The notes below the pieces were generated by a model. It saw only the letters and a list, made by a program, of their open reading frames with translations. It searched no databases and had not been told where the DNA came from. A program made the position numbers and the translations under genes. A DNA stretch of 64,000 nucleotides from Eudromia elegans (lineage: Eukaryota; Chordata; Aves; Tinamiformes; Tinamidae), in NCBI GenBank assembly GCA_003342815.1, contig PTEX01000420.1:290995-354994 (forward strand), given 5' to 3'. Shown here one piece after another: positions 43,080-64,000 of this stretch; within the stretch, counting starts at the first letter, position 1; each line of letters begins with the position of its first letter.

Positions 43080-43492
43080 TACCTCATTGCTCACATCTCT
43101 CCATGACCTACTTAGCCTCATGGTGGAGCTGAAGGAGGAGGTAGAGTGATAGAACCCAGAGAACCCTGCCCCTACACCCAAAGCAACCTGAGGATCCCCT
43201 ACCCTCTTGCCATAGGGTGGGATGGCGGGGCAGAATTAACAGCATTAAGAGATGAACAAGAAAGAAAACAGGTCCCTGTTTGAGGTGGCAGGTGAACTCT
43301 TTTCAGGTCCACCTCACCCCCCCCCCAAGGTGACCACATTCAACAGGTATGAGGCCCTGGCATTTGAGGGCCAGACAAACAAGGTCAAGGACCAAGGCCC
43401 ATCTAGGGGGTTGTCTAGGGTGAGATAGTCAAGGTCACGCCTTTAAGGCTGCTCCCACTGAGGAGAAAAGGAGCATCTGGAAGAAGTGGTGG

Positions 43493-43900
43493 GTGACTGT
43501 TGTGGGAGACTCCCTGCTGCAGGGCACAGAGGCACCAATGTGTAGACCCTACCCCTTGTCCAGACAGGTCTGTTGCCTGCCAGGGACTCAAATAAGGGAT
43601 GTCATGGACAGACTGCCAAGGCTTGTCCAAGCATCTGATTATTACCCCTTGTTACTGTTTCATGTGGGGACTAATGACACCATGGGGAAACTGAGCAACA
43701 TCAAACGAAATTTCAGAGCCCTGGGGATGTCAGTCAAAGGTCTGGGAGACCAGGTCGTGTTCTCTTCTATCCTTCCAATGAGGAAAATGGCTATGAAGAG
43801 GAAAAGGCAGATATTGCAGGTTAACAAGGGGCTGTGCCTCTGGTCTGGGCAACAGAATTTTGTTTTTTATGACCATGGGACACTGAAGATCAACAGCTAG
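43493..43900 (+). pseudogene. CR1 ORF1 esterase-like domain remnant
   Basis: A 135-codon open segment of CR1 ORF1. The GDS block and the HVGTND block of SGNH-type esterases are both visible. Upstream ORF1 is broken by stops and a C run near 43,318. Confidence 0.75.
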
Positions 43901-45036: not shown

Positions 45037-45639
45037 TTGGAATTAAATCTGGCAAGGAATGTTAAAGACAACAAGAGCTTCTTCAAATATATCAGTGGCA
45101 AAAGAAAGATCAGGGAAAAGGTGACTTTGCTGTTGAACAGGGTGGGTGTCCCGGTTACAAAAGACACAGAAGAAGTAGAGTTCCTGAATGCCTTCTTTGC
45201 TTCAGTGTTTGCCAAGGGCAGACCTCTGGAATCCCAGACCCTAGAGACAAGAGAAGCCTGGAGAGAGGAAGACTTGCCCTGGGGAGAGGAAGATTGGGTT
45301 AGAGAACATTTAGGTAAACTTGATACGCACAGATCCATGGGCCCTGATGGGATGGACTCCAGAGTGCTGCATGAACTGGCCAGTGTTATTGCTAAGCCAC
45401 TCTCCATCATTTTTGAAAGGTCCTGGAGAACAGGGGAGGTGCTGGAGGACTGGAAGAAAGCCAATGTCACTGTGGTCTTCAGAAAGGGCAAGGAGGAGGA
45501 TCCAGGCAGCTACAGGCCGGTGAGCCTGACCTCCATCTCTGGAAAAGCGATGGAGCAGCTCATCCTGGCTGTTGTCTCCAGGCACATGGAGGACAAGGTG
45601 CTCAAGAGTAGCCAGCATGGTTTCACCAAGAGGAAATAG
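45037..45639 (+). pseudogene. CR1 ORF2 reverse transcriptase fragment
   Basis: A 200-codon open stretch containing the N-terminal RT blocks, ending in a stop after GFTKRK. The remainder continues in frame past further stops, with IYLVISKVFDTIPHSI at the motif that usually reads YLDFSKAFDTV. Confidence 0.85.
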
Positions 45640-46352
45640 TGCTTAACTAACTCGATAGCCTTCTATGATGGAATGACTGGATGGGTAGATCAGGGCAAAG
45701 CAGTGGATGTCATCTATCTGGTCATCAGCAAGGTTTTTGACACCATCCCTCATAGCATCCGCTTGGAGAAGCACTGGAAGTGTGGGATAGATGAGTGGAT
45801 GATGAGGTGGTTGGAGAATTGACTGGATGGCAGAACTCAGAGGGTTGTGATCAGTGGTGAGGACTCTATTTGGAGTCCTGTAGCTAGCAGTGTCGCCCAG
45901 AAGTCAGTCCTCAGTCCAGGCCTGTTCAATTTATTCATCAATGACCTGGATTAAGGGACAGAGTGCACCCTTACCAAGTTTGTGGACAATACCAAACTGT
46001 GTGCAGTGGTCAACACTCCAGAGGGCTGTGCTGCCATCCAGAGGGAGCTGAACAGCTTGGAGAGCTGGGCAGAGAGGAACCTCATGAGGTTTAGCAAGGA
46101 CAAGTGCAGGGTCCTGCACCTGGGGCGGATTAACCCCAGGCAACAGTACAGGTTGAGGACCGATCTTCTGCAGAACAGCTCTACAGAGGGTGACAGAGCC
46201 CTAGAACAGGTTCCTGAGAGGGTTTGTGGAATCTCCTTCTCTGGAGATATTAAAAAGCTGCTCCAAGTGCAGTCCTGTGCCACATGCTCTAGGTGACCCT
46301 GCATGTGCAGATGGTCTGTAAAGGTCCCTTCCAACCTTAATGATTCCATGAT

Positions 46353-46714: not shown

Positions 46715-46832
46715 TTAATTTTCAACAACAAGCTCCTCCGTTTCTCTGTTGTTTTCTCCTTGTGCGCTCTCTTCCTCTTGTGCAGGAGCTTCCTCATCGG
46801 AGGCAGCATCCCGATTAGCTGTCTGCTCTTTT
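46715..46832 (-). CDS. Gene A exon 12: acidic cytoplasmic tail and stop
   Basis: The coding part of the terminal exon is 118 nt after the acceptor ctttttgttgcag. It completes Q and adds 38 residues rich in Glu, Asp, Gln and Asn (SDEEAPAQEEES, ending TEELVVEN), then TAA. No tyrosine-based signalling motif is present. An ATTAAA overlaps the stop region; the nearest AATAAA on this strand lies inside the downstream CR1, so the poly(A) site is unclear. Confidence 0.8.
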
Positions 46833-49800
46833 CTGCAACAAAAAGAAGGGCTTTCAGGAAGGAGGCTTCACTGCTCTGAAGAAAGAGTCCACCTAGGTGT
46901 GCTCTCAGCACACCTCTCAGCAGAGTACTCTCAACGGCTCACAAGGGACTCCACAATACTGCCACTACACAAGGTAGGTTGATCCAAGGGAAACTGTTAA
47001 GGAATGTGGGAAAAGAGCTACTCACTGTTTCCTTTTACTCAGTATGAAATTGGTGAAGTAAGAGAGCGCCATCAAATACAAGAGAGAGGCTGAGCCCACA
47101 GCAATGAAGATCAAACGAGGCTTATTTTGGAATTTCCGAGCTGCAGCCTCTGCAACTTTCTCAGCATCAAGACCTGGAGGAAAGGAGAAAATCCCGTACA
47201 TCACTGGGGTCTGCAGATTTGATATCACCCTATATTTGGGAATCCCAGACAATTTTACATTCCCAGTTGTTATTAATGCTGGTTCTTGTGCCTTGGATTA
47301 TAATCCAATGGATGATAAAGTTCATTTACATTTCTCATGGGTTCCTGGTCCTCCAGCCAGTGAAAGCCTGAACCATCAGGAGCCCTAACGGTACTTCAGG
47401 GAGGGCATGTGAGCTGGGGAACTTGGATTCCCCAGGAGGGCAATGAAGTAGGAAACAAGAAAGAAAGCTGATAGAAAAATCAAAAGGCAAGGACGACAGC
47501 CAGCTTACCCCTGTGATCTCCCTGAGGCTCAAGAGAAGGCTCCAGCCCCCTAGGAGGTGCAGAAGCAGTGCCTGCAGGGACATCTGTAATGACACACGGG
47601 GAAGAAAAGGTAAAATACCTGTGCCAAGACACGTGGTTGCAAAGGAAGCCCAGTGCATTGAGAGGGATGCCCTACGGAGGCCTAGATTCACACAGCAGCA
47701 GGGTGTCCTGCACCCCCTTTTGCTCAGGAGATGGCTGCTCTCACAGGAAACCAGGAGCTATGAGTCACTCCTGGGGTTCCCCAGGCACTAACTGCCACCG
47801 TCTCACACACCCAACACAAAAGCCATCTTGGGAAACATACTTCTGCCTTGTTTTAGACCATGTCCCATGCTCCTGCTAGCCTTTACTTTAATAAATGCAC
47901 CAAAGAACACACTCGTACACCTTGAACAAGCCAAGCCTTGTGCCAGTGCATGCAAGGTGTGAAGTGGTGGGTCATGGCTCTCATCAATCCCTTTCCTCTG
48001 CATTACCTGCAGCATATCAAGACCTTTTTCTGAAACCTCAGGTTTAAAGCACTTGCACCTTAATACACAGCAAAAGCTACTCACTAGCTGCTCTCTCCAA
48101 TTCCGCCAGGAGTTCCTTTAGGATTTCAGAAGAGTCCTTGCTGGATTTTCCTTTGGGGGACTGATCACCTAAACAGAAAGCCTTGTGTTAAATACCATAG
48201 GAACAAGAGAAGCACAAGTGAATGCTGCTTCTGTCAAGCAAAGCGCAACAGGAGGCCAGTGGGCACCACTCACCTCTGTGATTCCCCAGAAACCCTGATC
48301 CGGCATCCAGCTGAGAAGCTGCATTGCCATCATCTACAGCCACATCTGTAACCAAAGAGAAAAGCAGAGCTCTCTCCACCTTTTCCTGTTGAGCTTCCTC
48401 ACATTTGAATGGCAGTGAAGGACCATGGAACATCTCATTACACCAAGGCTCTTCTCTTGCCCTTCCACTCCAGAGTCTTTTGCAGACACTTATCCAGCCC
48501 ATGCAAAGGTTCCATATGGCTACAAATCTACATATGTTGTGAAAGGAGGCCCTGGTGTTCATATATTCTGTAACCACAACCCCAACAAGTTGTCTGGNTC
48601 TGCTGTAGGCATGGGAAGAAGCGTGAAGCACGAGGCTGTGGAAGCCAGGCAAAGCACCCCCCGCAGGTCTCTGAAGCCCTCCCAAAGCCCCATCTGCCCT
48701 TCTGCACCTACTAGCCATGCACAAGGAACTGCGCAAGCAACAAGGCACAAGGAAGTGCACAAGCGATGCAGCCCGTGCATAAAACACACTGAAACAAAAG
48801 GCTCCTTCCAGGAAGCACAAATAATTCCAGCACTTACTCTGGGCTGGCTCCTGAGTCACAGAGATGGGATCCAAATGACGAGCCGGAGGGACACTGCCTG
48901 CAGGAACGTCTGTAAGGAAACACGGCCAAGGTTCATTACAGGCTGTGTGATCCTTCTGCAGAAGGGGCTTGAGAGGAACAGAAATGGGAACGGGGAACAC
49001 ACATGTTGTTCAAGACCCTTCCAGATCCACGGGGCCAGCCTGGGAGCCGGCATCTTCCCAAATCACCGCTGAGGCTCTACCCTGCAGCCCCCAAGCACCC
49101 CAGGACAAACATGCAGCCCCTCGGTGCTTCTCCAGGGGAGGACTCTAATACACACCAAGGAACCTGACCTCTAGCAAGGGGCAGCCTGCAGAACCCCAAG
49201 ACAACAAGGATCATTCACATTGCTCACACGCAGCAGCCCGCTGGCCAGTGGAACCTGACCCGGCGCTACCCCTACTTGTCCTGCTGCCCTTTGGTGAGGC
49301 CTTGTGTCCTGCAGACCTTGGCTTCCTCAGCCCTGTGCTGCAGACTGGGAGAAGGAACGAGCGCTTGTTCCACTGAGGAGCTGATGACTACTCACCTCCA
49401 GGGACAGATCCGGGATCCAGACGTGAAGAGTGACCGTCACCACCTGGAACCCTGTCTATGTTGAAGCAAACATGGACACAGCTCCCATTACTTATTGGCA
49501 CAGGCTTCTTCAGAGTTCACTGGTAGTGAACGAGAGTAGAAGTGAATACACCAGGGCCACGTACCCTGAGGATCGCTCCGAGGCTCCGCAGCAGCAGGTC
49601 GCAGAAGAGCCGCATAGCCCTTGCCTAGACACAGAGCAGAAATGCAACACGGAGGTGGCAGGTTTCCTTATAAGCCCGTAACAACTTCTTTACAAGCGGC
49701 CGTAAGGAATGAAGTGCATGTGTGTGTGTGGGGGTAGCACCATGACAGGCACAAATACATGGGACAACGGAAGGTGCGGAAGGGCAGGGAGGACCTTTTC

Positions 49801-50810
49801 CCTGCCACCTGCCAGTTCTCAAAGTCAAGCTGCACTTCACACCCTACCTCTGTGGCTCCGCTGCATCTCCAGAGTTCCCAGAAGTCCTGAAGGGGAAAGA
49901 TGATTGACAATTTCATGAGAACAAAGAAGGACAAGGGAAGTTCTCGTTTCTTTTGGGAACTAAAACTTGACTACGTACTCCTGGGAAGACCTGGAGGACG
50001 CGCCTTGAAATCCAGCTGTGGAGCTGGATAATCTGCGACAACCACATCTGTAACGAAGCCAAGATGAGAGCAGAGTATCGTGGACTGGCACCTCCAGGTT
50101 GCCCAAGAGGGTCACCAATCGCATCCAGCCCAGCACGGAAAGAACACTCAGGCTCTGCTGTGCCCGCGGGACGAGAGCTCCCATCACGTCACGTACCCCT
50201 TGCAAGACCCGGAGGCCGTGCCTTGGGATCCAGCTGGGAAGCTGGATAATCCATGACAACCACATCTGTAACGAAGCCAAGATGAGAGCAGGGTCTCATG
50301 TGAGCAGCCCCAGGCCCAGACAAGGGCAGGAGCCGCTCGAGCAGAGCGCAACTTCCAGGCTTCCCGGGGCAGGTCCCGGTGCACCCACCTCCAGCCTGTC
50401 CAGGACGGTCCCCACTGGCCTCGGGCCAAGCACTGGTCTCACGGCCAGGCCCCGCTGTGTCCACAGGACGAGAGCTCCCGTCACGTCAAGTCACATCCCT
50501 CCCCGTGGCACCAGGCGCTGCTCCCGGGCCCGTCTGGCCCCGCACGCAGCCCGTCCCACCCTGGCCCCCAGCCCGTCGCCGCCCTCACACCCCTGGCACC
50601 GCTCGCGTCGCCGCTCACTGCCCATAGCCCTGGCCTCGCTGCCGTCTCCCACGGCCACTTCCCGCCGCCCCGGCCCGGCCCGGCCGCCCTACCTGGGCGC
50701 GGCGCCACCCGCGGAGCAGCGCAGCCCGCCCGGGCTCGCAGCAGCACCGCGAGGCCCAGCAGCAGCAGCAGGCGGCGCCCGGCGGCGGCCGCCCCACGCG
50801 CTCGCCCCAT
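46715..50810 (-). CDS. Gene A: predicted 12-exon single-pass (type I) membrane protein built from phase 1-1 mini-exons
   Basis: I do not recognise this family. Twelve exons with GT/AG borders join into one open frame of 972 nt (323 residues plus TAA). The order is: signal peptide (residues 1 to about 33, an RRLLLLLGLAVLL core), nine ectodomain mini-exons (39-84 nt), a transmembrane exon (hydrophobic span about residues 256-280, followed by SKRKQ) and an acidic tail ending ELVVEN. Every junction from exon 1 to the transmembrane exon is phase 1, so any mini-exon can be skipped without breaking the frame. Several exons share a DVxV..D....QLD pattern. No cysteine occurs in the ectodomain after the signal region, and I see no N-glycosylation sequon, which suggests an extended or disordered stalk. 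The start ATG at 50810 has A at -3 and G at +4 and lies in a CpG island. The inferred role is a surface protein of unknown function. Exons 4-6 are the least certain. Confidence 0.7.
47026..47173 (-). CDS. Gene A exon 11: transmembrane exon
   Basis: A 148-nt exon with phase 1 entry and phase 2 exit, acceptor ctttcctccag, donor GTGAGT. It encodes an amphipathic juxtamembrane stretch (GLDAEKVAEAAARKFQNKPR), a hydrophobic span starting LIFIAVGSASLLYL and a basic stop-transfer SKRKQ. The gene B counterpart at 61192-61330 has the same acceptor, GL start, phases and donor. If the donor is not used, translation stops at once, because the codon after CAG is TGA. Confidence 0.85.
47509..47583 (-). CDS. 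Gene A exon 10: VPAGT module, membrane-proximal
   Basis: A 75-nt exon, phase 1-1, with acceptor gtcattacag and donor GTAAGC. It encodes VPAGTASAPPRGLEPSLEPQ plus GDHR and resembles exon 7. It is the last ectodomain module before the transmembrane exon. Confidence 0.75.
48085..48168 (-). CDS. Gene A exon 9: helical module ending LERAA
   Basis: An 84-nt exon, phase 1-1, with acceptor tttctgtttag and donor GTGAGT. It encodes a charged linker, then SSEILKELLAELERAA, with leucines spaced as in an amphipathic or coiled-coil helix. Gene B exon 4 ends [16 protein letters not shown] and has a matching acceptor (tttctgtctag), so the two exons are homologous. Confidence 0.85.
48274..48345 (-). CDS. Gene A exon 8: VAVDDG module
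   Basis: A 72-nt exon, phase 1-1, with acceptor tttggttacag and donor GTGAGT. It encodes VAVDDGNAASQLDAG followed by SGFLGNHR. It is the clear counterpart of gene B exon 2 ([16 protein letters not shown]). Confidence 0.8.
48838..48909 (-). CDS. Gene A exon 7: DVPAG module
   Basis: A 72-nt exon, phase 1-1, with acceptor tttccttacag and donor GTAAGT. It encodes DVPAGSVPPARHLDPISVTQ plus EPAQ. It resembles exon 10 (VPAGT...) and gene B exon 3 (DVPM...). Confidence 0.75.
49396..49443 (-). CDS. Gene A exon 6: LDPGSVPG module
   Basis: A 48-nt exon, phase 1-1, using the acceptor gggttccag and a strong GTGAGT donor. It encodes GGDGHSSRLDPGSVPG. The RLDPGSV segment resembles HLDPISV of exon 7. An acceptor 8 nt upstream (catagacag) would break the frame and was not chosen. 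Confidence 0.6.
49565..49624 (-). CDS. Gene A exon 5: alanine-rich module
   Basis: A 60-nt exon, phase 1-1, after a tgctctgtgtctag acceptor and before a GTACGT donor. It encodes GKGYAALLRPAAAEPRSDPQ. It has no clear similarity to the other modules, so support comes only from splice signals and frame. Confidence 0.5.
49848..49886 (-). CDS. Gene A exon 4: short LLGTLEMQRSHR module
   Basis: A 39-nt exon, phase 1-1. A pyrimidine-rich acceptor (ttccccttcag) precedes it and a GTAGGG donor follows. It encodes RLLGTLEMQRSHR with exon 3's last base. The HR end resembles the ends of exons 8 and 10 and gene B exon 6. The call rests on splice signals and phase only. Confidence 0.6.
49979..50047 (-). CDS. 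Gene A exon 3: DVVV module, duplicate of exon 2
   Basis: A 69-nt exon, phase 1-1, with TTACAG acceptor and GTACGT donor. It encodes DVVVADYPAPQLDFKARPPG plus LPR. Most of the base differences from exon 2 change the amino acid, at four positions (M/A, S/P, P/F, A/P), while the adjacent intron sequence (ttggcttcgttacag) is identical. Confidence 0.8.
50197..50265 (-). CDS. Gene A exon 2: DVVV module
   Basis: A 69-nt exon, phase 1-1, follows a TTACAG acceptor and ends before a GTACGT donor. It encodes DVVVMDYPASQLDPKARPPG plus LAR. Exon and flanking introns are a near copy of exon 3 located 218 bp away. Confidence 0.8.
50693..50810 (-). CDS. Gene A exon 1: signal peptide
   Basis: The 118-nt coding part begins at ATG 50810-50808, context agcATGg. 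It encodes a basic N-terminus (MGRARG), a leucine-rich core (LLLLLGLAVLL) and a small-residue region (RAGCAAPR), which is a classic signal peptide with likely cleavage near the AGC or GCA residues. It ends CCAG before a GTAGGG donor, leaving one base of a codon (phase 1). The damaged copy at 51582-51668 and the truncated gene B exon 1 at the right edge carry the same 3' end. Confidence 0.8.
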
Positions 50811-51000
50811 GCTGCCCGCCGCACGCGCGCCCCGCTCCGCTCCGCGCTCCGCCACTCGCTCCGCGCCCCGCTCCGCTCCTCGCCACATTCCGCCGGGCAG
50901 CACAGAGAAGCCCCCGCCGAGGCACCGCCCGCAGCCACACTCCGCTCGCGCGCAGCAGCTCCACGCCACGCACCGCTCATTCACTCATTGACTTAATGTA
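50811..51000 (-). promoter_or_regulatory. Gene A CpG-island promoter and 5' UTR
   Basis: This very GC- and CpG-rich block lies directly upstream of the gene A start. It contains degenerate gcggagcg-type repeats and GC-box-like CCGCCC motifs and no TATA box near the start. The GC-rich character ends abruptly near 50,985. A homologous block precedes the damaged exon 1 copy at 51669-51860. Confidence 0.6.
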
Positions 51001-51051
51001 GATATATGAAGTATTTCCCCCTCTCCCAACTTTTTTTTTCTCCCCCATAGG

Positions 51052-51087
51052 CTTTAGGGAGTGGAAGCGCCAGCAAGGCTTCTGTGG
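51052..51087 (+). repeat. 36-bp direct repeat, copy 1
   Basis: The motif beginning ctttagggagtggaag and ending ggcttctgtgg matches 52098-52133 with a single mismatch. The two copies bracket the damaged exon 1 copy. Confidence 0.8.
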
Positions 51088-51217
51088 CACTGGTATATTC
51101 TGGTTAAATCCTAAAAGCAGCGCGTCTTTTTTAAAATCTGTATGTCTGCTGGGGAACTTCATGGGATGGTCCTAGCTCCAGGCGATGATATTGATGGGAC
51201 AATAGCAACAGCATACA

Positions 51218-51860
51218 GAGCCGCTCGAGCAGAGTGCAACTTCCAGGCTTCGCGGGGCAGGTCCCGGTGCACCCACCTCCAGCCTGTCCAGGATGGTCCC
51301 CGCTGGCCTCGGGCCAAGCATCAGCCTCGCGGCCAGGCCCCGCTGTGTCCGCAGGACGAGAGCTCTTCTCATGTCACATCCCGTCCATTCCCGTGGTGCC
51401 AGGCACTGCTCCTGACCCCACTATGGCCCCGCACGCAGCCCGTCCCACCCGGGCCTCCAGCCCGTCGCCGCCTTCGCACCCCTGGCACTGCTCGCGTCGC
51501 NGCTCGCTGCCCATAGCCCTGGCCTCGCCACCGTCTCCTGCCGCTGCCTCCCGCGGCCCCGGCCCGGCCTGGCCGCCCTACCTGGGCGCGGCGCTGCCCG
51601 CGGAGCAGCGCAGCCCGCCCGGGCTTGCAGGAGCACTGCCAGGCGGCCGCCCCCCACGCTCGCCCCATGCTGCCGCCACACGCGNGCCCCGCTCCGCTCC
51701 GCTCTTCACCCCGCTCCGCCGGGCAGCGCAGAGAAGCCCCCGCCGAGGCAGCGCCCGCAGCCGCGATCCTCTCCCCGCGCTGCGGCTCCGCGCCACGCAC
51801 CACCCCACTGCCACGCAGCTCCGCGCCCCGCGACCGCCCGGCCCTGTGTGGCGCAGCGCA
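51218..51860 (-). pseudogene. Damaged tandem copy of gene A promoter, exon 1 and start of intron 1
   Basis: This block aligns with about 50328-50985. Both start at cgctcgagcagag, continue through the same intron sequence and carry a matching exon 1 with a CCCAG/GTAGGG donor at 51582. The ATG at 51668-51666 keeps its context, but the exon is 87 nt instead of 118. A 31-nt loss removes the leucine core of the signal peptide and shifts the frame, so the product would be MGRAWGAAAWQCSCK... in the wrong frame for exon 2. No other exon is present. It could still act as an alternative promoter or non-coding first exon for gene A. Ns at 51501 and 51685 leave small uncertainty. Confidence 0.7.
51582..51668 (-). 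pseudogene. Exon 1 copy with deleted signal-peptide core
   Basis: This is the coding remnant inside the damaged copy. The start ATG and splice donor are intact, but the reading phase at the donor is 0 rather than the phase 1 needed by the downstream exons. The frame matching CAAPRAAPR is present but not linked to the ATG. Confidence 0.65.
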
Positions 51861-51879
51861 ACAGCCCCGCGGGCAGCAG

Positions 51880-52097
51880 CGCACGCGGGACGAGCACCTA
51901 GAGCAAAGTGAGGTTTGACTTCTCTGTGACCGGTACTTACAATAAATGATGATAATGGAAGAGGGTGGGGTGTTTTTTGTGAGTTTCTTTAGCAAGAAGC
52001 TTGTGTCACTCAGAAATGGTTTCAGGGTCACTCTGCAAAGATGTGACCCGATGGGTCGCAGAGGAGGTCCTCAGTGACTTCAGATGGAGCTCATTGA
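51880..52097. other. AT-richer spacer, no gene seen
   Basis: Ordinary non-coding sequence between the damaged exon 1 copy and the second 36-bp repeat. I see no splice-supported exon. Confidence 0.5.
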
Positions 52098-52133
52098 CTT
52101 TAGGGAGTGGAAGAGCCAGCAAGGCTTCTGTGG
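52098..52133 (+). repeat. 36-bp direct repeat, copy 2, ending at an N
   Basis: This is the second copy of the 51052-51087 motif. The match stops exactly at the N at 52134, after which composition switches abruptly to GC-rich DNA. Confidence 0.8.
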
Positions 52134-52134
52134 N

Positions 52135-52300
52135 GCGCGGGCCGCCCGGCGCTGCTGCCGCCCGCGCTCCTGCTGCCCGCGGCGCCCCCGGGGCAGCGGC
52201 CGCTCTGCGCCGCACGCGGAGCTCGCCCGTGGCTACGAGCGGGGGAAGCGACGTCCCCGCGCAGAGCCCGCGGGGCGGGAGCCTCTGGAACGGGCGGAGT
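52135..52300. promoter_or_regulatory. Orphan GC-rich CpG block
   Basis: This is a short CpG-island-like segment directly after an N. On the plus strand it reads a leucine/proline/alanine-rich stretch (ALLPPALLLPAAPPG) that looks like a signal peptide but has no ATG directly tied to it. It may be part of another first exon or a misjoined contig end. It does not align obviously to gene A exon 1. Confidence 0.35.
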
Positions 52301-55300
52301 CCAAGTTTTCACACCTGGCTCGTCAGTGGGACCTCAGATAGAGCGTGGCTTTCTCCTCTTACACCTCATTGAAATCAGCAAAAACCTCAGCATTTCTGAG
52401 GATTTTTAAAAATGTTTTAATTTTATTTCAATACATCAAAAATCACACAGATAAGACTCATTTAGAGAAAAATAAATGACCTTTAGTGCATTTTCACCAT
52501 CACTTTCTTCAGTCTTTGCTTGAATACCAGGTGCAGCTAAACTGGCTTTCATTTAATGGAGTGCACAGTTCAACTTGCATCCTGGCGTGCACCCTCATCC
52601 CTCTTGACGGTGCGGACTGAGAGAGTGATAAGGACCAGCAGTTGATACCGGCTGTTATGGCAGGCCGTCAGACAGGGGAGTGCTGCTGTTCCTCATCAGG
52701 AGGCTGTTTCTCCCATCGCTTTTGACCCATGAGTTCTGTTCACTTCTAGCTGTTGTCCTGACTCCTGTGGTTTGGAGTGTCAAGGAAGGTTTTGGAGACC
52801 CCACACTTTTTAGGTGGTGTACACAGTGTTCTGTGCGGCTTCCTGAACTCACATGTGCTTTTTCTTTTCTCTTTTTTATTTTCTGATATAGCAGCAAGAT
52901 GTACCAGAATAAAAGCAAGATGGACTTTTGTTCTTAACAGTTTTCTGCATCATGGTGCCTTTTGAAGTTGGACATACTTGGTGCTGCAAAGCTGTAGGGA
53001 GTGGGAAGAAATACTTCCCTGCCAGCTCGCTAGGGCTTTTGTGAAAGAGCTATGCACCAGGAATGTCATAATAATGAGATGTGAGTTTTTTAGATGCCTG
53101 TACATTTCCCTTAGTGCTGCTGGTGGCTTTGGGTGCTCTGTGTGAGCAAGGAGGAGATCCTGATGCACTCACATCTATGCTGGCTCTGGAGGCTGGACAT
53201 GGTGAGGATGCCTTGTGTGCCTACCTGCCTTCCCCCTCTTCAGGTTAAGGAAGGTCACCAGCTCAGTGATGGGTTTAAGGAGCTCCTGGAGGCAGCATGA
53301 CTTGAGGAGAAAGTGTGGCCTGTGACTTGGATGAGGCCGATACCCCTGGGTCTGAGGCAGAGAGGGCAGCTATAAAGAGAGAACCTGCTGAAGCTGCGTG
53401 GGAGAGGGAGCAGGAGAGAAAGGGAAGGCACCTCCTTCTGCCTGACGCTTCTCTATTCCCTCTTATTCATCCTCCTCACAGCTTTCCTACTGTCCTCTCT
53501 ATTTTTCTTTCTTCTATGCTCCAAGTACGGACCTTCAGTGAGGCAGCCTCCAAACTGAGGTGCTTTTCCTTCCTGCATTCCCTGTGCTCTGACTCAGCTC
53601 CGAGCACAAGATGCTCAGTTAGGAGGAGCAGCTGTTGGAGATGGAACTGAAGGGTCTGAAGTGTAACAGTTCTGGTGTGTTCAGAAGGGACTGGGACCTT
53701 CACATGGTGCTCTGAGCTGAGAAATTGCAGTATCTCTGAGCATGTGTGCTAGCTCAGGCTTGACTTCCTGACCTAGCTGTGTGTCTCTCAGAAACTACAG
53801 CTCCACCAGGATTCACTTCTTTGTCACATAGTAATCTTCACCAAGAGGTATCTCTGTGTTCAGAGGACCTTTCTGACTAGTGAGACAGGAGGAGAAAAGG
53901 AGAAACTTCAGCATCCATGTTTAGTGCAATTTGTCTGGATTTTGCACAGCTTTGTTGTTACAGGACTAATGCTCCTAGAGCTCCCATAGGAACACTTAAC
54001 TTCCATAAGTGCTTCCAGTTCAGGAGGCTGTGATATGTGAAGAGTGATATGAGGAGAAAGGTGATGGGAAAGGTTATGCTGCCTTGTGTAGGAGCCGTGC
54101 CCACATGGCCGAAGGCCCACATGTGTGTTTTCACCCACATGGATCTTAGGAAAAATCCTCAAGCAGAAACTCCTAGATTGAGGTATAAACTCCTTTACTC
54201 CATCCATTTTTCTTCTGTTTCTGATGAGAGCAGTGAATACTCAAACTCTTTGCTTGCCTTTCCTTACATTTCTGAGTAGTGTAAGCAAGTCTTCTATTCC
54301 TTCCGTAATTCTTTTGCTTATAAGCTTGGAGGTGTGTAACACTGGTGTAGGGCAAAGTTCTCACATTTGTGCTGCATCCTTTGTAGAGCTGGACACTTGT
54401 GGTTTAGTGAACTGATGGCCTGTAGACTTGAAAATCAGATATTGGCCTGTAAGTGTCTCTGCAATGCAACACTGAATAACCGTGGCCCATGTGGTCAGGC
54501 CAAAAGCATTTTTAGGAAGGGCAGGAAAGAAAATGGAATGGATGGGAGCTTCCTCCATTTTTCAGGTCTTTGGGTAGGTTTTGCATTTGTAGGGTGTGGT
54601 GGAGGAGCTGGACACACTTTGTCAGCTCCCCAGAGGTAGCCTGTTCGATCTAGGATAGCTTTGTCACTCCTGACCTGTATGAGAGCCTGTGACCTTAATG
54701 TTCTAAAGGAGTAATTGCAGGCAGTAAGTCAAGCATGCTCTTTTTGTATCAGTATTGTGAAGAAGAAATGTAAATATGTCATCTTCATCAATGTCAAGGA
54801 ATTTCTACTCTTTAGCCAACCTGAAAGATCATTTTCATTAATCCTGTGTCAGGTTGATGCAACATAATATGTTGGAGACATTCTTCCTGCAAAGGCACAA
54901 GGAATGAAGAACAGAGGAGCTTGTTGGTCTATCATTCAGTGCCGTAAATGGTTCTGTGACATCCCAGCATATGAGAAGGCAGCATTCATTGTGTAGCAAT
55001 CACAGTGCCAATTTACACCTGCATAATCTCTTGAGAGAGAGGACCTCTTCTCTTCAGACATCTCCCCAGTTCCAGAATATTGGATATTCAGAGATTTATG
55101 GCATATCAGAGATTTATGCCATTGATGATAATCTTGGTAATTCTGGCCCTGTCCATCTGCAACAGAGCTACAGTTCTACAAGCTTCTGCAATTGAGGTAG
55201 TTGGCATGACCTGCCTGGGTCTCTGTGGTGAAGCAAACAAATGGGCCGGGATACGCAGAATCGTAAATGTCCCAATCCCATCACACCAGCCCTGCAGCTT

Positions 55301-56130
55301 GTGCTCCGTGACAACTAACATCACACCAGGAAGAGGTTAGTCTCTGTACTGCTTGTACCGGGTGCCACCTAGATTTTTTTTAAATGGGTGATGAATTTTG
55401 ATATGAAGAAATCATTTCAGTTGAGGAGTAGATGTTTCTGAGAGCAGTTTCTGAAGAAGGGCTTATCTATAGCTACTAAAATCTGCTATTGAGGTGCTAC
55501 CCAAAACCCACAAGGACTTGTGGGAAGAAGACACTGCCATGGTGCCAAGGGAGCTCTCTTGTACATTGTTTCTTGTCTGGATCAGAAAGGGTGGCTATGC
55601 ATCAGCCTTGGGCTGAACAGTGCTTTAGAGTGTATGAGTTTAAGGTAAGGGTTATGGATGAGAGGGCAAGCCTAGAGGTGTTGTGAATAGGGGAGCGGGA
55701 AGAGGCTGCGAAAGGAAGGTGTTCAGTACCATGAGAGCTATTGCATACGGAGTTTCTTCTTTGGTCTGTATGCTGACCTTGGCCTGAAGGAAATTTTGAG
55801 GTTTGGGATTAACTATAAAGAAAATAGGAAGGTTAGAGGCACCATTTTTGTGGGTTTTTAATGGACTCAGAAACAAAGGTGTGTGGTGCTAAGAGGGCTG
55901 TCATGTGAGGAGCTTCTTCTCTGGGCCAGAAATGGGGGCTCATGTCCCCCAATTGACCTGCACAGCAGTTGGAGTTCTAAGGTTGAGAGGAAGAGGAAAG
56001 CTAGAGGCAGTGATGGCATTGGTGGGGAAAAGGACTGCCAAAGGCAGGGCCATGCTTTTTTTCAAACCATGCTTTTATATTGACCCCCCTTTCTGGTCCC
56101 TAGGGGAATTCCTCACATGACACATCCGTA
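52301..56130. other. Intergenic spacer between genes A and B
   Basis: No exon of the A/B family was found here. A charged plus-strand frame (53315-53650, with SEAERAAIKREPAEAAWERE) has no convincing splice context. A short repeat of cagagatttatg occurs near 55,090. Confidence 0.5.
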
Positions 56131-56538
56131 GGCACCACACACCGTCCCTTCACAGTTTCTTCCCACACCCATGACAATGACACTTCTAGGTTTGCTCTTT
56201 TTCTCAATCCGAACCCAATGCAATCCCTAACCCTAAGATTATATTTTTTCCAACACCCCAGAAAAAAATGGGATGCAGACACACGATTTCTGATGATCTC
56301 AGATGATGAACTGAGATTAGGGTCAGATGACTTGCCCCGCACTCAAACCTGAACCTCCACAGAGTTTTCAGGCCAAGGCTGGGATGTGATCCCACCTTTC
56401 TAGCTCATTTGAAAAACGAAAAACTCTTCACACAACAGCTCTTGGCACCACACACTTTCCTTTTACAGCCCCTTTCCATACCCAGAACAGTGCCTCTAAG
56501 CTTGCTCTTTCTGTCAACCCAAATCCTAACCCTGAAAG
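56131..56538 (+). repeat. Local direct duplication of about 105 bp
   Basis: 56131-56237 and 56443-56538 share gcaccacaca, cacagtttctt/tacagcccctt, gacact.cta..tttgctcttt and aatccctaaccct/aatcctaaccct. The copies are diverged, with an offset of about 312 bp. Confidence 0.65.
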
Positions 56539-57148
56539 CCTGGGCTGGGATGGAGACACAGGGTCAGTGCTTCTGCTAGGAAATCAGAGGGAGGCAGCTG
56601 GGCAGACTCAGCTCTGCTGCTCCATCACAGTCTATGAATCCAAGTGGAAGCTCCCTTCCGTTCTCTTTCCTGCTGTTCCCAAAGGTGAACTTGTGCTGAT
56701 CACCAGTGCTGCAAATACTGCTCCATTGGAGAGACTCATGCAAGCCCGTGTCTTATTGCCAAGATGAGAAGCCATTAGGTGATGAAACAACAAGTATTCC
56801 AGCTCTTCAAAGCAGACGGCACAAAAGGGAGTGTTTAGCCTGCACCAGTTTTATGCGTGATACTAGAGACTGCAGTTTATCCTCCAGGCACGCTGCATCC
56901 ATGATCTCTTGATATCCACAAGTGACCTAGAGACTTCAACATGAAGAGGAGAGGGCGATAAGATGTTTAAGCCATCCTCACAGCCCAGCTTCCGGTGCCA
57001 GGAGTGCACCAGGAATTCTGTCTGGCAGTCCGCATAGTTATTTTCCCTGCTTATTGCCTATAAATTATTGACAACTTCCTCCCTTGGCAGCCTCTGCCAT
57101 GTCTGAAGGCCGCTGCCTGCTACCCCTTCGAATACATCCACACTTAGG

Positions 57149-57955
57149 ATTTCAGTGAAGATCAGGAGTGAGCTGTTGGAGCCTTCCCATGCTCCCATCC
57201 TCCTGATCTTCATCATGTGGAGAGCTCCTGCAATCCCCAGGCTAGAGCCAATTGGGAAGGCGGACTGAAAATCTGTCCTCCTGGGTCCTGGCTGCTGGTG
57301 GCTGCTCAGTCTGGGAAACCAGATGAGAGCTAGTCTAAATAAACACCACTTAAAAGGCATATGGGTCAGAAGCGCTAGGTTTAGAAAATGGTGGTGGCTC
57401 TTAGAGGCTGTACTGATGCCAGGGTATTGATTCAATATTGACTTCAAGGCTGGGAGAAATTTGCCTTCTGGGTCCAAATATGGCATTTTCCTGCATATAA
57501 ACAATTATGCTAAATTCTTTGAGAACTAGAAGTCCAGAATAAACTGTCATTTGCATGCTCAGAAGAACTGCTAGGGGTTGCCCATTTACCATCTCTCTGT
57601 CTGTCTGGACTGTATTCTGGCTCAGATGCACCATGAGCTTCCCAAGCAGGACCTCCCTGGACAGCCTATGTCCGAAAGTCATTGGATTCTCTCCCTATGG
57701 TTATATCTAAAGTAGCATTTCAGCTGAGATCAGGAGTGAGCTCTTGATGTGGGTCTTCCCATGCTCCCAACTTCCTGAGCTTTACTCCTTGCTGTGGAGA
57801 GCTCCCATAGTCCTTCAGCTGGAGCCAGAGGGGAAGACAGACTCCAGGCTCGAGGCCTGTGCCTCCAGGGACCTGACTGCTGTTAGGTTCTCAATCCCAG
57901 AAGCCAGATGAGAGCTACCCCCAGATCAATCCTCCTCAAAAGGCATACAGGACAG
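57149..57955 (+). repeat. Local direct duplication of about 220 bp
   Basis: 57149-57369 and 57718-57955 share, in order, atttcag..agatcaggagtg, cttcccatgctccca, gtggagagctcc, gccag..gggaag, aaccagatgagagct-type and aaaaggcata words. The copies are diverged and no coding frame is conserved between them. Confidence 0.7.
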
Positions 57956-58690
57956 TCACTGCCTTTGCAGCACCCACTGCTGTTTGGAGCTGTAGGTTGG
58001 AGATACTTGCAGATGTAGGTGCGCCCTACCACAGCTAGGTATTTGGAAGCAAGCGGCGCTTGCAAGCTGTTTTGACCTGCCTCGTTCCTGCGTCCTGAGA
58101 AAGTCTTGTGGGACTGCTGTGGGAGGGCCGGGGCAGCGGCAACAGAGCAGCTGCCCTGGCCTGCAATTCTGGAGTGCTAGGACAGCCTGGAGAGTGCCAG
58201 CAGGGCAAGGATCCGCTCTGCTTGGAAAGATGAGCTGGGCATGCTGGAGATACTGTAGCGAGTAAGCAATTGGTTTCTGCTGCAGCCTTTTCTGCTGTGG
58301 AGCTCCTTGCCAGAGGGATGAAAACAATTAAGTACTTTCCTCTGCCCCTGCAATCGCTTACCTCATGCTAGATTTTCTCCTCCAGCTTTTCTTTACTGCT
58401 AACTGCCTGCTTTGTTCATTCTCAAATCCCAGCCAGCTCCCTTTAGCCCTCAGAGGAAGGGAAGCCCTGTTCATGGAAGCTTCCCTACTTCTTAGTAGCT
58501 TGAGCAGTCACATTGATCCTAAGGGCACATGTCCACACAGCTCTCCCTACTACAGCCTGAGGTTGGCGCACATAGAGGCTAGAAACAAGCAAATGTAAAC
58601 AGGAAGCAATATTTAGGTTTGAATTTAACTTTGCCCAAACAAAGGGGGGAAAAAATGGTCTCTCTTCTGCCGCAGCCATGAAGCTTATAG
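57956..58690. other. Unassigned sequence downstream of gene B
   Basis: A 123-codon minus-strand frame (57956-58327) is open but has no start context, splice pairing or recognisable domain. Treated as non-coding. Confidence 0.45.
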
Positions 58691-58693
58691 TTA

Positions 58694-58703
58694 TTTATTT
58701 ATT
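58694..58703 (-). terminator. Poly(A) signal AATAAATAAA for gene B
   Basis: Two overlapping AATAAA hexamers on the minus strand lie about 85 nt downstream of the TAG of the proline-rich terminal exon. Confidence 0.6.
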
Positions 58704-58784
58704 ATTATGAAAGCTTCGCCTGCCTCAACAGCTGGCCGTAAGTGCTTACCCAGGTCTTGACGGCAGCTAATTCCTTCCAGGGGG

Positions 58785-59172
58785 CTAGGAGGTAAAAGTG
58801 GGTGGGGGGCCAGGGGGCCGGGGAGGTGGTTTTGGATGGTGCTGGAAAGTACCAGGCACAGAGGGTGGCAACTCCTGCTTTGCCCATGACTCCATCTGGT
58901 CTGCGGCCTCTGGCTGATGCTGCTCATCTGCTCGGGAGGTATTGGGGGGCCACGGAGGCCGTGGCGGGGGCGGACGGGGTGGACGGAGGCCCATGCTTGA
59001 TGCGTCTGCTTCTCTGGGGCGGCGGGAATGGTGGGATGCTTTTCCAAGTCCGAGGAGGGACCGCTGGGGTTGGCTCCACTTCTCCGGGGTGCCAGGGTTA
59101 CTAGGCCAGTTGTCCATGCGTGAGAGGGGGTTACTGCAATCTGATGCGGACCTCTGGGCTGCACGGAGTTTC
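58785..59172 (-). CDS. Gene B long terminal exon: proline-rich tail
   Basis: The acceptor is tgtctctctctgcag. Joined in phase 2 to the transmembrane exon it gives [12 protein letters not shown]... and 128 further residues to TAG at 58785. The tail has two polyproline segments ([15 protein letters not shown] and [15 protein letters not shown]) with basic residues beside PxxP, as in SH3-domain ligands. Two overlapping AATAAA hexamers lie about 85 nt past the stop. This makes it the better-supported end of gene B, with the CR1 at 59.81-60.74 kb inside the last intron. Confidence 0.6.
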
Positions 59173-62100
59173 CTGCAGAGAGAGACATGCAGGCTATAGG
59201 TCCCAACGTGGAGAAGAGCCAAATGTGCAGCAGTCCCACAGTGTGAATGGGCTCCAAGCCCCACTGGCTGCCTGGCTACATCAGGCCACAACTGACGCGA
59301 GGGTCCCAGGAGAGCAGCCTGCAGCCCCTACGGTGTCTGGCAGCCTATCTCCAAGTAGGAGCTGTAGGGTACCAGAAGCTACAGGTAGAAAACAGGACAC
59401 ACTTGTACCCCCAAGGCTTTGTTTATGCTCCCCTGCACCCAATCCTTGTGGCTTCTCAAGTTCTTCTTGGCCCACACCACATTGACCTGCCTCTCTGCAC
59501 ATGATGGGAGGGGGATCTAAGTCTGAGAAACAACAGAGGCTGAAGCACTCCACAGTATGCCAGGATCTAGGAGAGCTTCAAGCCTGAGAAGTCTTACTTC
59601 TCAGTGTCTGACAAAGACTAACACTCAGTTTATAATCTGACTGATAGTGAATACTCAAGGTATCTACAAAGAAACAAGATCACAACTTCTGCTGCAACTA
59701 ATGCGCTCTTGGGAATATGTATCCAAAGTACAAAATCCCTGCCTTTACTGAAAACAAACTCAATGTGAGTGTCTGGGTTCAGGTGGTATAATGCCTTTTC
59801 CAAAGCCATGCAAAGAATCATAGAATCATAGAATGGCTAGGGTTGGAAGGGACCTCTAGAGGTCATCTAGTCCAACCCCCCTGCACACGCAGGGTCTCCT
59901 AGAGCATGTGGCACAGGGTGATGTCCAGGTGGGTTTGGAAGATCTCCAGAGAAGGAGACTCCACCACCTCTCTGGGCAGCCTGTTCCAGGGCTCTGTCAC
60001 CCCCACTGTTAAGAAGTTCTTCCTCAAGTTCCTGTGGAACTTTTGGTGCCTCAATTTGTGGCCGTTTCCTCTAGTTCTATCACTGGCCACCACTGAGAAG
60101 AGGCCAGCCCCCTCCTCCTCACTCCCTTTCTTGAGATATTTATATACATTAATCAGGTCCCCTCTCAGTCTTCTCTTCTCCAGGCTGAAGAGGCCCAGTT
60201 CTCTCAGCCTTTGCTCATAGGGCAGATGTTCCAGGCCCCTAATCATCTTTGTGGCCCTGCGCTGGACTCTCTCTAGCAGCTCCACGTCCCTCCTGCACTG
60301 GGGAGCCCAGAACTGCACACAGGACTCGAGGTGCGGCCTCACCAGGGCTGAGTAGAGGGGCAGAATCACCTCCCTCGACCTGCTGGAGACGCTCTGCTTA
60401 ATGCACCCCAGGATCCCATTGGCCTTCTTGGCCACAAGGGCACACTGCTGCCTCATGGTCAACTTGTCGTCCACCATGACGCCCAGGCCCCTCTCTGCGG
60501 GGCTGCTCTCCAGGAGGTCGTTCCCCAGCCTGTAGGCATGTCTAGGGTTATTCCTGCCCAGGTGCAGGACCCTACACTTGCCCTTGTTGAACTTCATGAG
60601 GTTACTCGCCGCTCAATTGTCCAGTCTGTCCAGGTCCCTCTGGATGGCAGCGCAGCCCTCAGGGCTATCAGCTATTCCTCCCAGTTTCGTATCGTCAGCA
60701 AACTTGCTGAGGGAGCACTCCATCCCTTCATCCAGGGATGAGGTGGGATGGAGTCATAACCATGATCTGGGCTCCTCTGACAGCTAGACCGAGGAGCACA
60801 TTTGGAATTAATGTCATTAGATAAGAAGGTGTTTTAATATCATCAAATTCCCTCTGAGTGGACTGTAGATATTACAGTTCTTACTTTCTGTGGCAATCTC
60901 ACACTTTGCTTCTCTTCCTGATTTGGCTTAGCTTTCATCTGTGGTTGGGCCTTCGCTTTTAGTGACAGGGTCAGTATTAGGTAACACTGGCAACTGTAAG
61001 AAGGGTTTTCAAGAAAGAATACTCATTGCTATGAACTAAGGGTCCAAATAGCAATCTTACACCAGAACGTGCAACGGAGTATGTCCAAGAACCAACTTTG
61101 CTTTCCAGAAGACTACATATTCCTTACTAATAGCAGCTTATACAAAATTACAGAATTTCAGGNGAAAAAAAGAAAAAAAAGGAAAACTCACCGCATCCTC
61201 TTCCTCAGTATGCAAATAGCTATGCAACACAACACTGCTCCAGTCACGAGGCTACCCAAGACTGTTGCAGTGTGTATCATGCCGTATCTTTGGATGTCTC
61301 TTGGGTTTATACCTTTCATGCTAGCCAAACCTGGAGGAAATTACACAGGGCCATATGTTACTCTTTTCTGTACTGATAGTCTCACCATGGGTTTGAAATT
61401 GCCAGGAAAATGTTTTCTTTNCTCTTTCTTAGCATCTCGGAAGGAAGGAAGGAGGGAAATCTCAGACACTACAATCTGTTCTTAGCTTCAGTAGCAGCAA
61501 AGTCCCCAAATCTTTGCAAATCAGCCTGTTTGGAAGTGTCTCTTTAGCCTCTGAGCCCTAATCCAGTTCCCAATTGGATGGGTTTGTTCCCCTTTCTGGA
61601 AATCCTTTACATTCCACGATTGATTCTGTGCTCTCTCACCTTGCAGGGGCTCATAAGGGCAGTTGCATGGATGCGTGCTTGGGACAAGCTGTCCTGCTGA
61701 AGAAGACTTATTAGGCCAGCAGGAGAGCACGCAGTGGTGCTCACCTGGTTCACCAATAACTCCTCTGAGTGATGTGCACAAAAGCCATCCTGGCCCAGGG
61801 AACGCCACCCTGACTCTTCCCTCCCAGGTCAGCCTGCAGCAAAGGAGACACCTGATTCTGAGTCCCTCCCTTCATGTTTTCTCCAACACAGATAACAATT
61901 CCCCTTCCTACACCCTCTGGTGTTCCAAATGCCACTAATTTTCTGAGTCATCAACACTCATCTCTCACTTAGGATCCCTGTAAGACTGTTCATACCTCGG
62001 TGCTTTGGAAAAAAGGCGTATTTCCTGTCACGGAGAGCTTCGCTGGGCTGTGACACACCTGGAAGCACTGTCAAGAATCAGAGAAAGGTGAAGCCTCAGG

Positions 62101-64000
62101 ACTGCTCAGACACCACGGCATGCAGGACAGATGGGGTTCCCTCCAACCCCCTGCCCACTCTGTGAGGCAAGGCATCACTTGGGGCCTCCTTCTACACCAG
62201 GAATCCCACTCTGTGCCTGCAGCCTCTAGGCACTCCCTAGAAGTTCTGAGATGCAGGTACAGCAGGAGGACGCTTTAAAGTGCTTCCTTCCCCAAATGGA
62301 AAAGCTCCACAATCCCTGGGAGCTGCATGGTGTGAGAATTGAGGTTGTGTAACAGGAGCCACAAAGATTTATGTGCACCTCTATGGAACACTAAATGCGA
62401 TCATGCAAACATGCCAGACACAAAAGTCATCTTTAGAAAGCTGCTCCCAGCTTCTTTCTTCAATGCCATAGTGCCTTAACATTGCACATNGCTGACGTGC
62501 TGTGCAGTATTGGACTCCAAGGGAAAAACCTGCAGGCACAGTGGGATTTTGGTGTCCTACACCAGATGATAACAGACAGCAAGTACCTGGCACGCCTGCT
62601 ACGGGCATTGCCTCACTTTCTTCATAGTACATTGGCAGGCTGTCACTGCCTTCTGCAGGAAAGGGCCGCTGGTGATACTCTTTGGAAAGAAAGTGAGAAA
62701 GCTTGATTAGAGACAACTGTTCCTCATCTCTTCCTCCTGGTATCTTCCGGGGTCAATGCTTTTCAAACAGCTTCCAAAAAAATCAAAATCAAAACTTGGC
62801 ATTTCAGGGTGGGCACCAGATCACTAGCCGAAACATGCCCTTTGTAGAGAAAAATCAAAGCATACCAAACTTCTGGATAACCAATATAAGCAACAGCACC
62901 AGCAGGATGTGTGGGGAGACTAGACAAACGCATGTGCTCCTCTCATTCGCATCCCACTTGGTGCCTTTTTGATAACTGGCAGGATGACATTGAATCCTTT
63001 CCTTCAAAGAGGGCAGAAAAAAGGTTTTAGCCAATTCAGCTGGAGAAAAAAGGCGTTCGGAGAAGCAGGGGCTCCTCATGCTAACCTGACCACGCAGTAC
63101 ACACGGCAGTCACACACTGCACTGAGCCATGAACTCCTACCACGAGACACAGAGCACTTTCACAACCGTGGTGGAGAGCACCCTCATGGCCGAGATCCTG
63201 AGCCAGCTCTGCAGCACGCCGACGTGTGCAAGGTGGGAAATGGTGCAGCACAGGGGAGAGCCTCTCGTCAGTCTCTTTCTCCAACAAAAGCTACAGCTTA
63301 GCCATGGCTGCTCCTAAAAGTTTCCAATGATTACACTTAGAGGGAAAGCCACCTACCAGCTGCTCTCTCCAAGTCCTTCAAGATGTCTTCGAGGGTTTGA
63401 GAAGATTTCTGAGAGAAGTTTTTCATTTTGGCCTCAAATTTTGATCTTTGAGGACCTAGACAGAAAGTATTAAGTTAAATTTCACATGAAGAAACTGCTC
63501 AAAAATATATGTGGCTTCTTTCAAGTAAACCAAATATGTCCATTTACCNGTGCCATGCCGCAAAGGCTCTAGAGGAGGATCCTGATGAGAAGCCTGTGAA
63601 GTGCGACTCATGGGCACATCTGTACACCGGAGGGAGACATTTTTGTAACACACTGTGGTATATTTCCAGAGAAGTGAGTGGCAGGAAGTGGCAGGAGATC
63701 ACGCAATTGCAATAATCATCCAAGTACATCGAGGCTGTCAGGGCTATGAAGGCATGTGGGAGAGCTTTGGAAAAGTGAATTTTGACAACTTACCCTGACG
63801 CTGAACACCAGCATCCAGATGAGAAACAGCAGAGCCATCCTCTATCGGCACATCTAGAACCAAAACGCATGGGAAGAGGAAGAGCAGCTCTTAACCACGC
63901 TCACCCATCTGCCCATATACCCACACACGTGCGTTCAGCGCGGCCCCGCCGCCCCGGCCCGGCCCCGCCGCCCTACCCGGGCGCGGCGCTGCCCGCGGAG
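58785..64000 (-). CDS. Gene B: paralog of gene A, 5' end beyond the window
   Basis: The visible exons are the 3' end of exon 1, five phase 1-1 mini-exons (60, 72, 99, 66, 72 nt), a 139-nt transmembrane exon and a terminal exon. They join without a stop. Homology to gene A is clearest in exon 1 (APRP before a GTAGGG donor), exon 2 ([12 protein letters not shown]), the helical exon 4 (LERAA) and the transmembrane exon (same phases, same acceptor). The terminal exon is ambiguous. A 388-nt proline-rich exon at 58785-59172 fits the phase, has a strong acceptor and is followed by AATAAA. A shorter exon at 60843-60993 also fits the phase and sits at the same distance as in gene A. One N-glycosylation sequon (NFS) occurs in exon 4. 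Predicted as a type I membrane protein of unknown function. Confidence 0.65.
59814..60738 (-). mobile_element. 5'-truncated CR1 LINE, 3' part of ORF2
   Basis: The 3' end carries the CR1 hallmark on the minus strand: ggttggaagggacc-type sequence ending in repeats of ATTCTATG. An uninterrupted 232-codon frame (59899-60597) encodes the C-terminal part of the reverse transcriptase with typical CR1 segments ([27 protein letters not shown]). The 5' end stops near a DEG-equivalent position (ttcatccagg), as in the usual CR1 5' truncation. The open frame suggests a younger insertion than the copy at 43-46 kb. It lies in the same orientation as gene B. Confidence 0.9.
60843..60993 (-). CDS. Gene B short terminal exon candidate
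   Basis: The acceptor cccttcttacag lies 198 nt after the transmembrane exon; the matching intron in gene A is 193 nt. In the required phase it is open for 49 codons ([19 protein letters not shown]... to [11 protein letters not shown]). The other frame starting at the same acceptor reads [20 protein letters not shown] followed by S and a stop. That looks more like a cytoplasmic tail but does not match the phase. This may be a frame-shifted relic of the ancestral tail exon. Confidence 0.4.
61192..61330 (-). CDS. Gene B exon 7: transmembrane exon
   Basis: A 139-nt exon with phase 1 entry and phase 2 exit. The acceptor atttcctccag matches gene A and the donor is GTGAGT. It encodes [17 protein letters not shown], a hydrophobic span ([20 protein letters not shown]...), then LRKRMR as stop-transfer. 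As in gene A, failure to splice gives an immediate TGA. Confidence 0.8.
61996..62067 (-). CDS. Gene B exon 6: membrane-proximal module
   Basis: A 72-nt exon, phase 1-1, with acceptor gattcttgacag and donor GTATGA. It encodes [20 protein letters not shown] plus PKHR. Its HR end and position match gene A exon 10. Confidence 0.65.
62587..62652 (-). CDS. Gene B exon 5: acidic tyrosine-containing module
   Basis: A 66-nt exon, phase 1-1, with acceptor ctttcctgcag and donor GTACTT. It encodes [20 protein letters not shown] plus VP. No counterpart was found in gene A. The YYEE stretch is a possible tyrosine-sulfation-like context. Confidence 0.65.
63357..63455 (-). CDS. Gene B exon 4: helical module ending LERAA
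   Basis: A 99-nt exon, phase 1-1, with acceptor tttctgtctag and donor GTAGGT. It has a basic N-terminal half ([15 protein letters not shown]) containing an NFS sequon, then [16 protein letters not shown]. It is homologous to gene A exon 9 but 15 nt longer. Confidence 0.85.
63548..63619 (-). CDS. Gene B exon 3: DVPM module
   Basis: A 72-nt exon, phase 1-1, with acceptor ccggtgtacag and donor GTAAAT. It encodes [20 protein letters not shown] plus RHGT. The N at 63549 falls in the wobble base of the last full codon (ACN, Thr). It resembles gene A exons 7 and 10. Confidence 0.7.
63794..63853 (-). CDS. Gene B exon 2: DVPIEDG module
   Basis: A 60-nt exon, phase 1-1, with acceptor ttggttctag and donor GTAAGT. 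It encodes [20 protein letters not shown], closely resembling gene A exon 8 (VAVDDGNAASQLDAG). Confidence 0.8.
63977..64000 (-). CDS. Gene B exon 1, 3' end only
   Basis: The last 24 nt before the window edge encode PRAAPRP plus one base, followed by a GTAGGG donor. This matches the end of gene A exon 1. The following intron start (ggcggcgggg) is CpG-rich, as in gene A. The start codon lies outside the window. Confidence 0.75.

Follow-up and report, generated by a model that had tools for sequence, protein, structure and literature searches.

Tandem genes with symmetric mini-exons in Eudromia elegans and their emu homologues: an apparently undescribed family of modular membrane proteins

We analyzed a window of 64,000 nucleotides from the tinamou Eudromia elegans (contig PTEX01000420.1), in which two adjacent genes, referred to as gene A and gene B, lie on the minus strand in the same direction. 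Gene A spans 50810-46715 and was rebuilt as 12 exons bounded by GT/AG splice sites; joined, these form an open reading frame of 984 nt that codes for 327 aa and is free of internal stops. In order, they are an exon carrying the start codon and a putative signal peptide (exon 1, 50693-50810, phase 0-1), nine 1-1 exons of 39 to 84 nt, a transmembrane exon of 148 nt (exon 11, 47026-47173, phase 1-2) and an exon of 118 nt encoding the cytoplasmic tail and the stop (exon 12, 46715-46832, phase 2-0). The initial annotation of this DNA had described gene A as 972 nt devoid of internal stops. The uninterrupted frame is borne out by the rebuilt model, whose length is 984 nt; the figure of 972 nt would fit the use of an acceptor lying 12 nt deeper in exon 6.

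The nine mini-exons of gene A (A2 to A10, all of phase 1-1 and on the minus strand) are of several kinds. A2 (50197-50265, 69 nt) encodes a YPASQLD-type module, and A3 (49979-50047, 69 nt) is its duplicate: flanks included, the two are 85% identical over 110 bp, and on this sequence comparison they are recent duplicates that were copied together with their flanks. A4 (49848-49886, 39 nt) was called from its splice sites and phase alone. A5 (49565-49624) and A6 (49396-49455) are both 60 nt long, A6 being reduced to 48 nt if the inner acceptor is used. They are followed by A7 (48838-48909, 72 nt, a DVPAG module), A8 (48274-48345, 72 nt, a (N/D)VA-DG-ASQLD module), A9 (48085-48168, 84 nt, the LERAA exon) and A10 (47509-47583, 75 nt, a membrane-proximal DVP module). 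Five of the 17 acceptors (A2, A3, A7, A8 and A10) end in TTACAG.

Gene B lies upstream of gene A and spans 64000-61192, most of its exon 1 falling beyond the window. The last 24 nt of this exon (63977-64000) are present, and the segment 63945-64000, which covers them and the start of the intron, is 92.9% identical to its gene A counterpart. Thus the claim that both genes share exon 1 holds for these 24 nt, the remainder being past the edge. Five 1-1 mini-exons follow: B2 (63794-63853, 60 nt, a DVPI module), B3 (63548-63619, 72 nt, a DVPM module whose last codon reads CNG, with one undetermined base), B4 (63357-63455, 99 nt, the LERAA exon), B5 (62587-62679, 93 nt) and B6 (61996-62067, 72 nt, a membrane-proximal LPGVSQ module). 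They precede a transmembrane exon of 139 nt (61192-61330, phase 1-2). Both genes therefore possess a LERAA exon of phase 1-1 and a transmembrane exon of phase 1-2, as first described.

With both LERAA exons counted, all the mini-exons of the two genes (14/14, 39-99 nt) are of phase 1-1 and a multiple of three in length. The full symmetry of the 14 exons had been put forward initially, and the rebuilt exons establish it.

Exon 1 is present in the window in one more copy. At 51218-51801, on the minus strand, lies a third, frame-broken and CpG-rich copy of exon 1 with promoter and first-intron sequence; it is 79% identical to 50330-50974 over 647 aligned positions. The duplication of genes, like that of exons, is established from the sequence. 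The observed/expected CpG ratio is 1.04 at 50450-51000 (gene A exon 1) and 0.88 at 51200-51850 (third copy); across the exon-1 copies it ranges from 0.88 to 1.11, vs 0.32 in the body of gene A and 0.2 in positions 1-42000 of the window. To judge by the sequence, this richness is as expected of promoters unmethylated in the germline. The segment 52100-52320, beyond the duplicated exon 1, is also CpG-rich (GC 0.76, CpG ratio 0.98), and 52092-52133 matches 51046-51087 at 93%.

We searched the gene A protein against 5.8 billion proteins. A single match was returned, an uncharacterized emu protein (LOC135323800 isoform X1; E 1.4e-33, 90% of the query, about 35% identity). Residues 60-440 of the LOC135323800 protein, used in turn as query, returned the protein itself and five more emu proteins; both searches scored the 8000 candidates sharing most words. 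The emu thus has at least six relatives; the six proteins (referred to as P0001 to P0006) come from six loci, LOC135323800, LOC135323788, LOC135323859, LOC135324760, LOC135327464 and LOC135327487, all on one contig of 219.5 Mb. These entries are predicted models, and P0003 includes intron-like sequence. Isoform labels appear in three of the six names (X1, X3 and X2), for clusters of 31, 10 and 4 members, and a fourth, unlabelled cluster has 4 members; a protein present in two source databases may have been counted twice. A query made of gene A exons 8-11 gave no match among 419 candidates; as it missed the emu as well, it is uninformative on other birds.

The peptides of 17 exons (the transmembrane exon of gene B being excluded) were then compared with the six emu proteins, against 200 shuffles of each. 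For 14 of the 17 no shuffle scored as well (0/200); this includes A2, A3, A7, A8, A9, A10, the transmembrane and tail exons of gene A, and B2 to B6. The exceptions are A4, A5 and A6. For A6, which was placed on P0002 only, 3 shuffles of 200 were as good. A5 shows weak homology (8/200 shuffles and 2/14 non-genic exon-like controls as good) and was placed on P0001, P0005 and P0006. The homology of A4 is unsecured (148/200 shuffles, 14/14 controls). None of the 14 controls equalled the other 15 peptides (0/14); this control pool is small, and weight is placed on the shuffles. The exons of gene B match the emu proteins too, although these had been retrieved with gene A and emu queries.

Exon 1 of gene A is 63% identical to residues 1-46 of P0001 and P0002 and 69% to residues 1-39 of P0004. 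The LERAA exons A9 and B4 reach 54% and 64% respectively with P0001, A10 62% (E 5e-5), B3 62% and B5 56% with the same protein, and B6 68% with P0005 (E 5e-6). With the transmembrane exon of gene A, five emu proteins share 41-44% identity (E 3e-6 to 1e-5); that of gene B is 36% identical to P0006 (E 0.014). The tail exon of gene A matches P0004 (E 9e-6), and the emu relatives continue beyond its stop. Homology to the emu LOC135323800-type family is thus established along the gene A protein. In addition, residues 18-54 of P0003 match the translated end of the intron ahead of A2 (50195-50302; 54%, E 6.6e-4). P0003 may begin at an alternative start, or its first residues may be an artefact of annotation; the match is also a sign of a conserved A2 acceptor region.

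Like genes A and B, the emu proteins have the same kinds of modules, a transmembrane stretch and a tail, and are homologues. Compared with gene A, the tail is longer in five of the six, and P0003 ends ahead of the transmembrane stretch. We mapped the peptides of the exons onto the six emu sequences as best-scoring non-overlapping matches above a threshold score of 38. The N-termini of P0001 and P0002 display the order exon 1-B2-B3-B4-B5, while P0005 reads A2, A5, A8-like, A7, B6, transmembrane stretch and tail. A module of A10 type stands right before the transmembrane stretch in P0001, P0002 and P0004, and B6 in P0005; one or the other thus precedes it in four of the five emu proteins that bear this stretch, P0006 having neither. 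P0001 has an A2-type module after A5, and P0003 a second A2-type module after the A8-like one. A4 was placed on no emu protein, and the B4 peptide outscored A9 at each LERAA stretch. On this reading, which uses short modules that cross-match, the order of modules appears to be largely, not fully, common to genes A and B and the emu proteins.

Differences between emu proteins come in blocks of module size. P0006 is without two consecutive module-sized blocks of P0005 and elsewhere nearly identical to it, except for a 13-residue stretch of the tail and single changes. The last 219 residues of P0004 and P0002 are exactly equal, and upstream the two differ by module blocks. Because the proteins compared are products of different loci, these differences reflect gain or loss of modules rather than splicing. 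The tandem genes with modular mini-exons and a membrane exon proposed at the outset are borne out, the emu homologues having modules of the same kinds, in sets that differ between loci. To judge by the comparison of emu protein models and by the isoform labels, the mini-exons may also be interchangeable, as had been proposed.

P0001 and P0002 each unite B-type N-terminal and A-type C-terminal parts, which in the Eudromia window belong to separate genes. For this reason the two genes seem to descend from a longer gene of which each has lost different parts, or else to belong to a single transcription unit.

The 3' end of gene B appears damaged. A tail-homologous stretch (60750-60993, minus strand) is out of frame and contains stops relative to the emu tails. 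Similarity to these tails is found at 60824-60750 and 59783-59709, out of frame or with stops, and between the two sit pieces of a CR1-like repeat (59825-60736). An alternative tail of about 50 residues, starting from 60993, is open but not in the emu reading frame. A candidate proline-rich last exon (58785-59172) is phase-compatible and open, and overlaps another long open frame; a rough measurement over 58717-59158 showed no GC signal by codon position, and the matches listed include none between this frame and the emu proteins. Gene B may have acquired a new tail or may be decaying at its 3' end.

Several repeats were seen in the window. Weak endonuclease and reverse-transcriptase matches lie at 42072-42485 and 44956-45636, and the segments 45945-46352 and 59825-60736, the second of which falls within the gene B tail region, resemble each other in pieces; the LINE pieces at 42072-46352, like those at 59825-60736, are CR1-like. 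Three segments, 36969-37358, 57135-57369 and 57713-58102, are copies of another interspersed repeat; they lie on both strands and share about 70% identity. A perfect TATTT microsatellite of 13.6 copies lies at 28625-28692.

Beyond residue 30 the gene A protein is free of cysteines, and it lacks N-glycosylation motifs; a single NRT is present in the ectodomain of each of P0002, P0003 and P0004. The signal peptide and the membrane span are putative, being read off the sequence and a weak AlphaFold model. This model, of P0001, has a mean pLDDT of 36 and was built from an alignment of six close rows; it is too weak for a fold search. Values above 50 occur only at residues 14-21 (signal), 88-121 (LERAA) and 378-398 (transmembrane), which are also the only, weak, helices; the LERAA-homologous stretch is modelled as a helix with pLDDT 54-57. 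The ectodomain is probably disordered, low pLDDT being weak support for this. The proteins are probably single-pass, and the basic stretch that follows the span agrees with a type I topology.

Searches for known families were negative within their scope. Genes A and B gave no Pfam match up to E 1, and the six emu proteins, searched up to E 10, gave nothing at the curated cut-off. Among PDB sequences none matched gene A and nothing convincing matched the emu alignment. Matches below threshold fell mostly on helical or transmembrane stretches. The strongest, apolipoprotein (E 0.0064), DUF5856 (0.011), TM_ErbB1 (0.024), Keratin_assoc and LAX (0.12), FCP1_C (0.14) and, in PDB, keratin 1 (E 1.4) were rejected as effects of composition. 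Rfam gave nothing at the gathering score, and the search of viral contigs gave 91 pattern matches and no relative. The six emu LOC numbers retrieved no paper in PMC, and a search on elastin-like cassette exons retrieved nothing useful. The literature listings, searched at the level of titles and abstracts and covering few subscription journals, showed no description of the gene A/B family. The initial annotation had recognized no known family in this locus, and no Pfam, PDB or literature match identifies one. The family is real and apparently undescribed, its members being already in databases as "uncharacterized" emu proteins.

We consider it probable that genes A and B belong to a rapidly evolving multigene family that encodes type I single-pass membrane proteins, with ectodomains built of one module per exon. 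Behind the signal-peptide exon, each short ectodomain module, 13 to 33 residues long, would have an exon to itself; the transmembrane exon and a variable tail would come last. Because each module exon is of phase 1-1, any of them could be duplicated, lost or skipped with the frame kept, and we infer that modules are alternatively spliced. The ectodomain would be cysteine-free and probably disordered, with amphipathic helical LERAA modules; the proteins would be located at the surface, where chains could pair via the LERAA helix. Our guess as to function is a surface stalk or display molecule that varies by gene or isoform at a fast-evolving contact, reproductive or immune.

A first alternative is that the exons are always all included, their symmetry being a trace of exon duplication and the protein a constant disordered spacer. 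The duplication of A2 and A3 with their flanks and the shared TTACAG acceptors are as expected of duplicated exons, and duplication of a phase 1-1 exon yields symmetric copies. Against this stand the isoform labels of the emu entries and the module-sized differences between nearly identical emu proteins, albeit of different loci, and we hold this alternative to be rather unlikely.

That genes A and B form one transcription unit, in which exon 1 of gene B splices into the exons of gene A and the exon-1 copies serve as alternative promoters, appears unlikely. Such a unit would resemble P0001 and P0002, which join B2-B5-type N-terminal modules to A-type C-terminal modules and tail, and it would account for several CpG-rich exon-1 copies within the window. 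But gene B has a membrane exon of its own, and the arrangement seen in the emu would follow just as well from an ancestral gene that had not been divided.

It is improbable that the two genes are a divergent branch of a known small-exon membrane family such as CD99/XG/CD99L2. These are type I proteins with a cysteine-free disordered ectodomain and small exons, i.e. the same general architecture; to our knowledge none has a LERAA-like helix exon. The CD99 Pfam model was not listed for the emu proteins at E up to 10 or for genes A and B up to 1, in searches whose HMMER filters drop weak matches, and the literature search gave nothing on this relationship. In 9 of the 57 listed open frames of the window, which were scanned, no marker gene for CD99/XG synteny was found; three of the nine had weak, sub-threshold matches, to reverse transcriptase, endonuclease and DUF1422. 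It is just as improbable that the locus is a decaying relic, as the out-of-frame gene B tail with a CR1-like insertion and the broken third exon-1 copy might suggest, since gene A is open over 984 nt, most of its exons match the emu and its CpG island is kept.

Our preferred reading, a family with one module per exon, resembles two known systems in its design; the comparison is one of descriptions, and the matches listed in the protein searches are all emu proteins. The coding region of schistosome micro-exon genes (MEGs) is described as consisting mostly of very small symmetrical exons, which permit alternative splicing (PMC4350168); these exons measure 6-81 bp, most commonly 15 bp, and the products have a signal peptide and are secreted, several having been shown to be disordered (PMC10526429). 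Genes A and B likewise have very small symmetrical exons (14/14, 39-99 nt), larger however than typical MEG exons, and differ by their membrane-span exon, judged by sequence, where MEG products are secreted. The chicken BG genes are described as a multigene family with a transmembrane region, numerous tiny exons whose first codon is split, a number of exons that differs between genes and a proposed coiled coil, the 21-nt exons coding for the cytoplasmic tail (PMC5938342); a single Ig-V domain makes up their ectodomain. In genes A and B, by contrast, it is the ectodomain that the mini-exons code for, and an Ig match such as a BG/butyrophilin Ig-V ectodomain would give is listed neither for them nor for the emu proteins; the gene A protein also lacks cysteines past residue 30. 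We thus file genes A and B under neither system, because of the membrane exon on the one hand and the lack of an Ig-V match on the other.

A possibility that goes further than our preferred reading, and that we consider less likely than not, is that birds possess a multigene family that diversifies surface ectodomains by combinatorial splicing of symmetric mini-exons, a vertebrate counterpart of the schistosome MEGs, in which the exon-1 copies may be alternative promoters. If true, this expanding surface family, with its ectodomain written in interchangeable symmetric exons, would lend itself to the study of what purpose combinatorial splicing of ectodomains serves. The family also illustrates that a fast-evolving family of tiny exons can remain unnamed even though annotation pipelines find its members.
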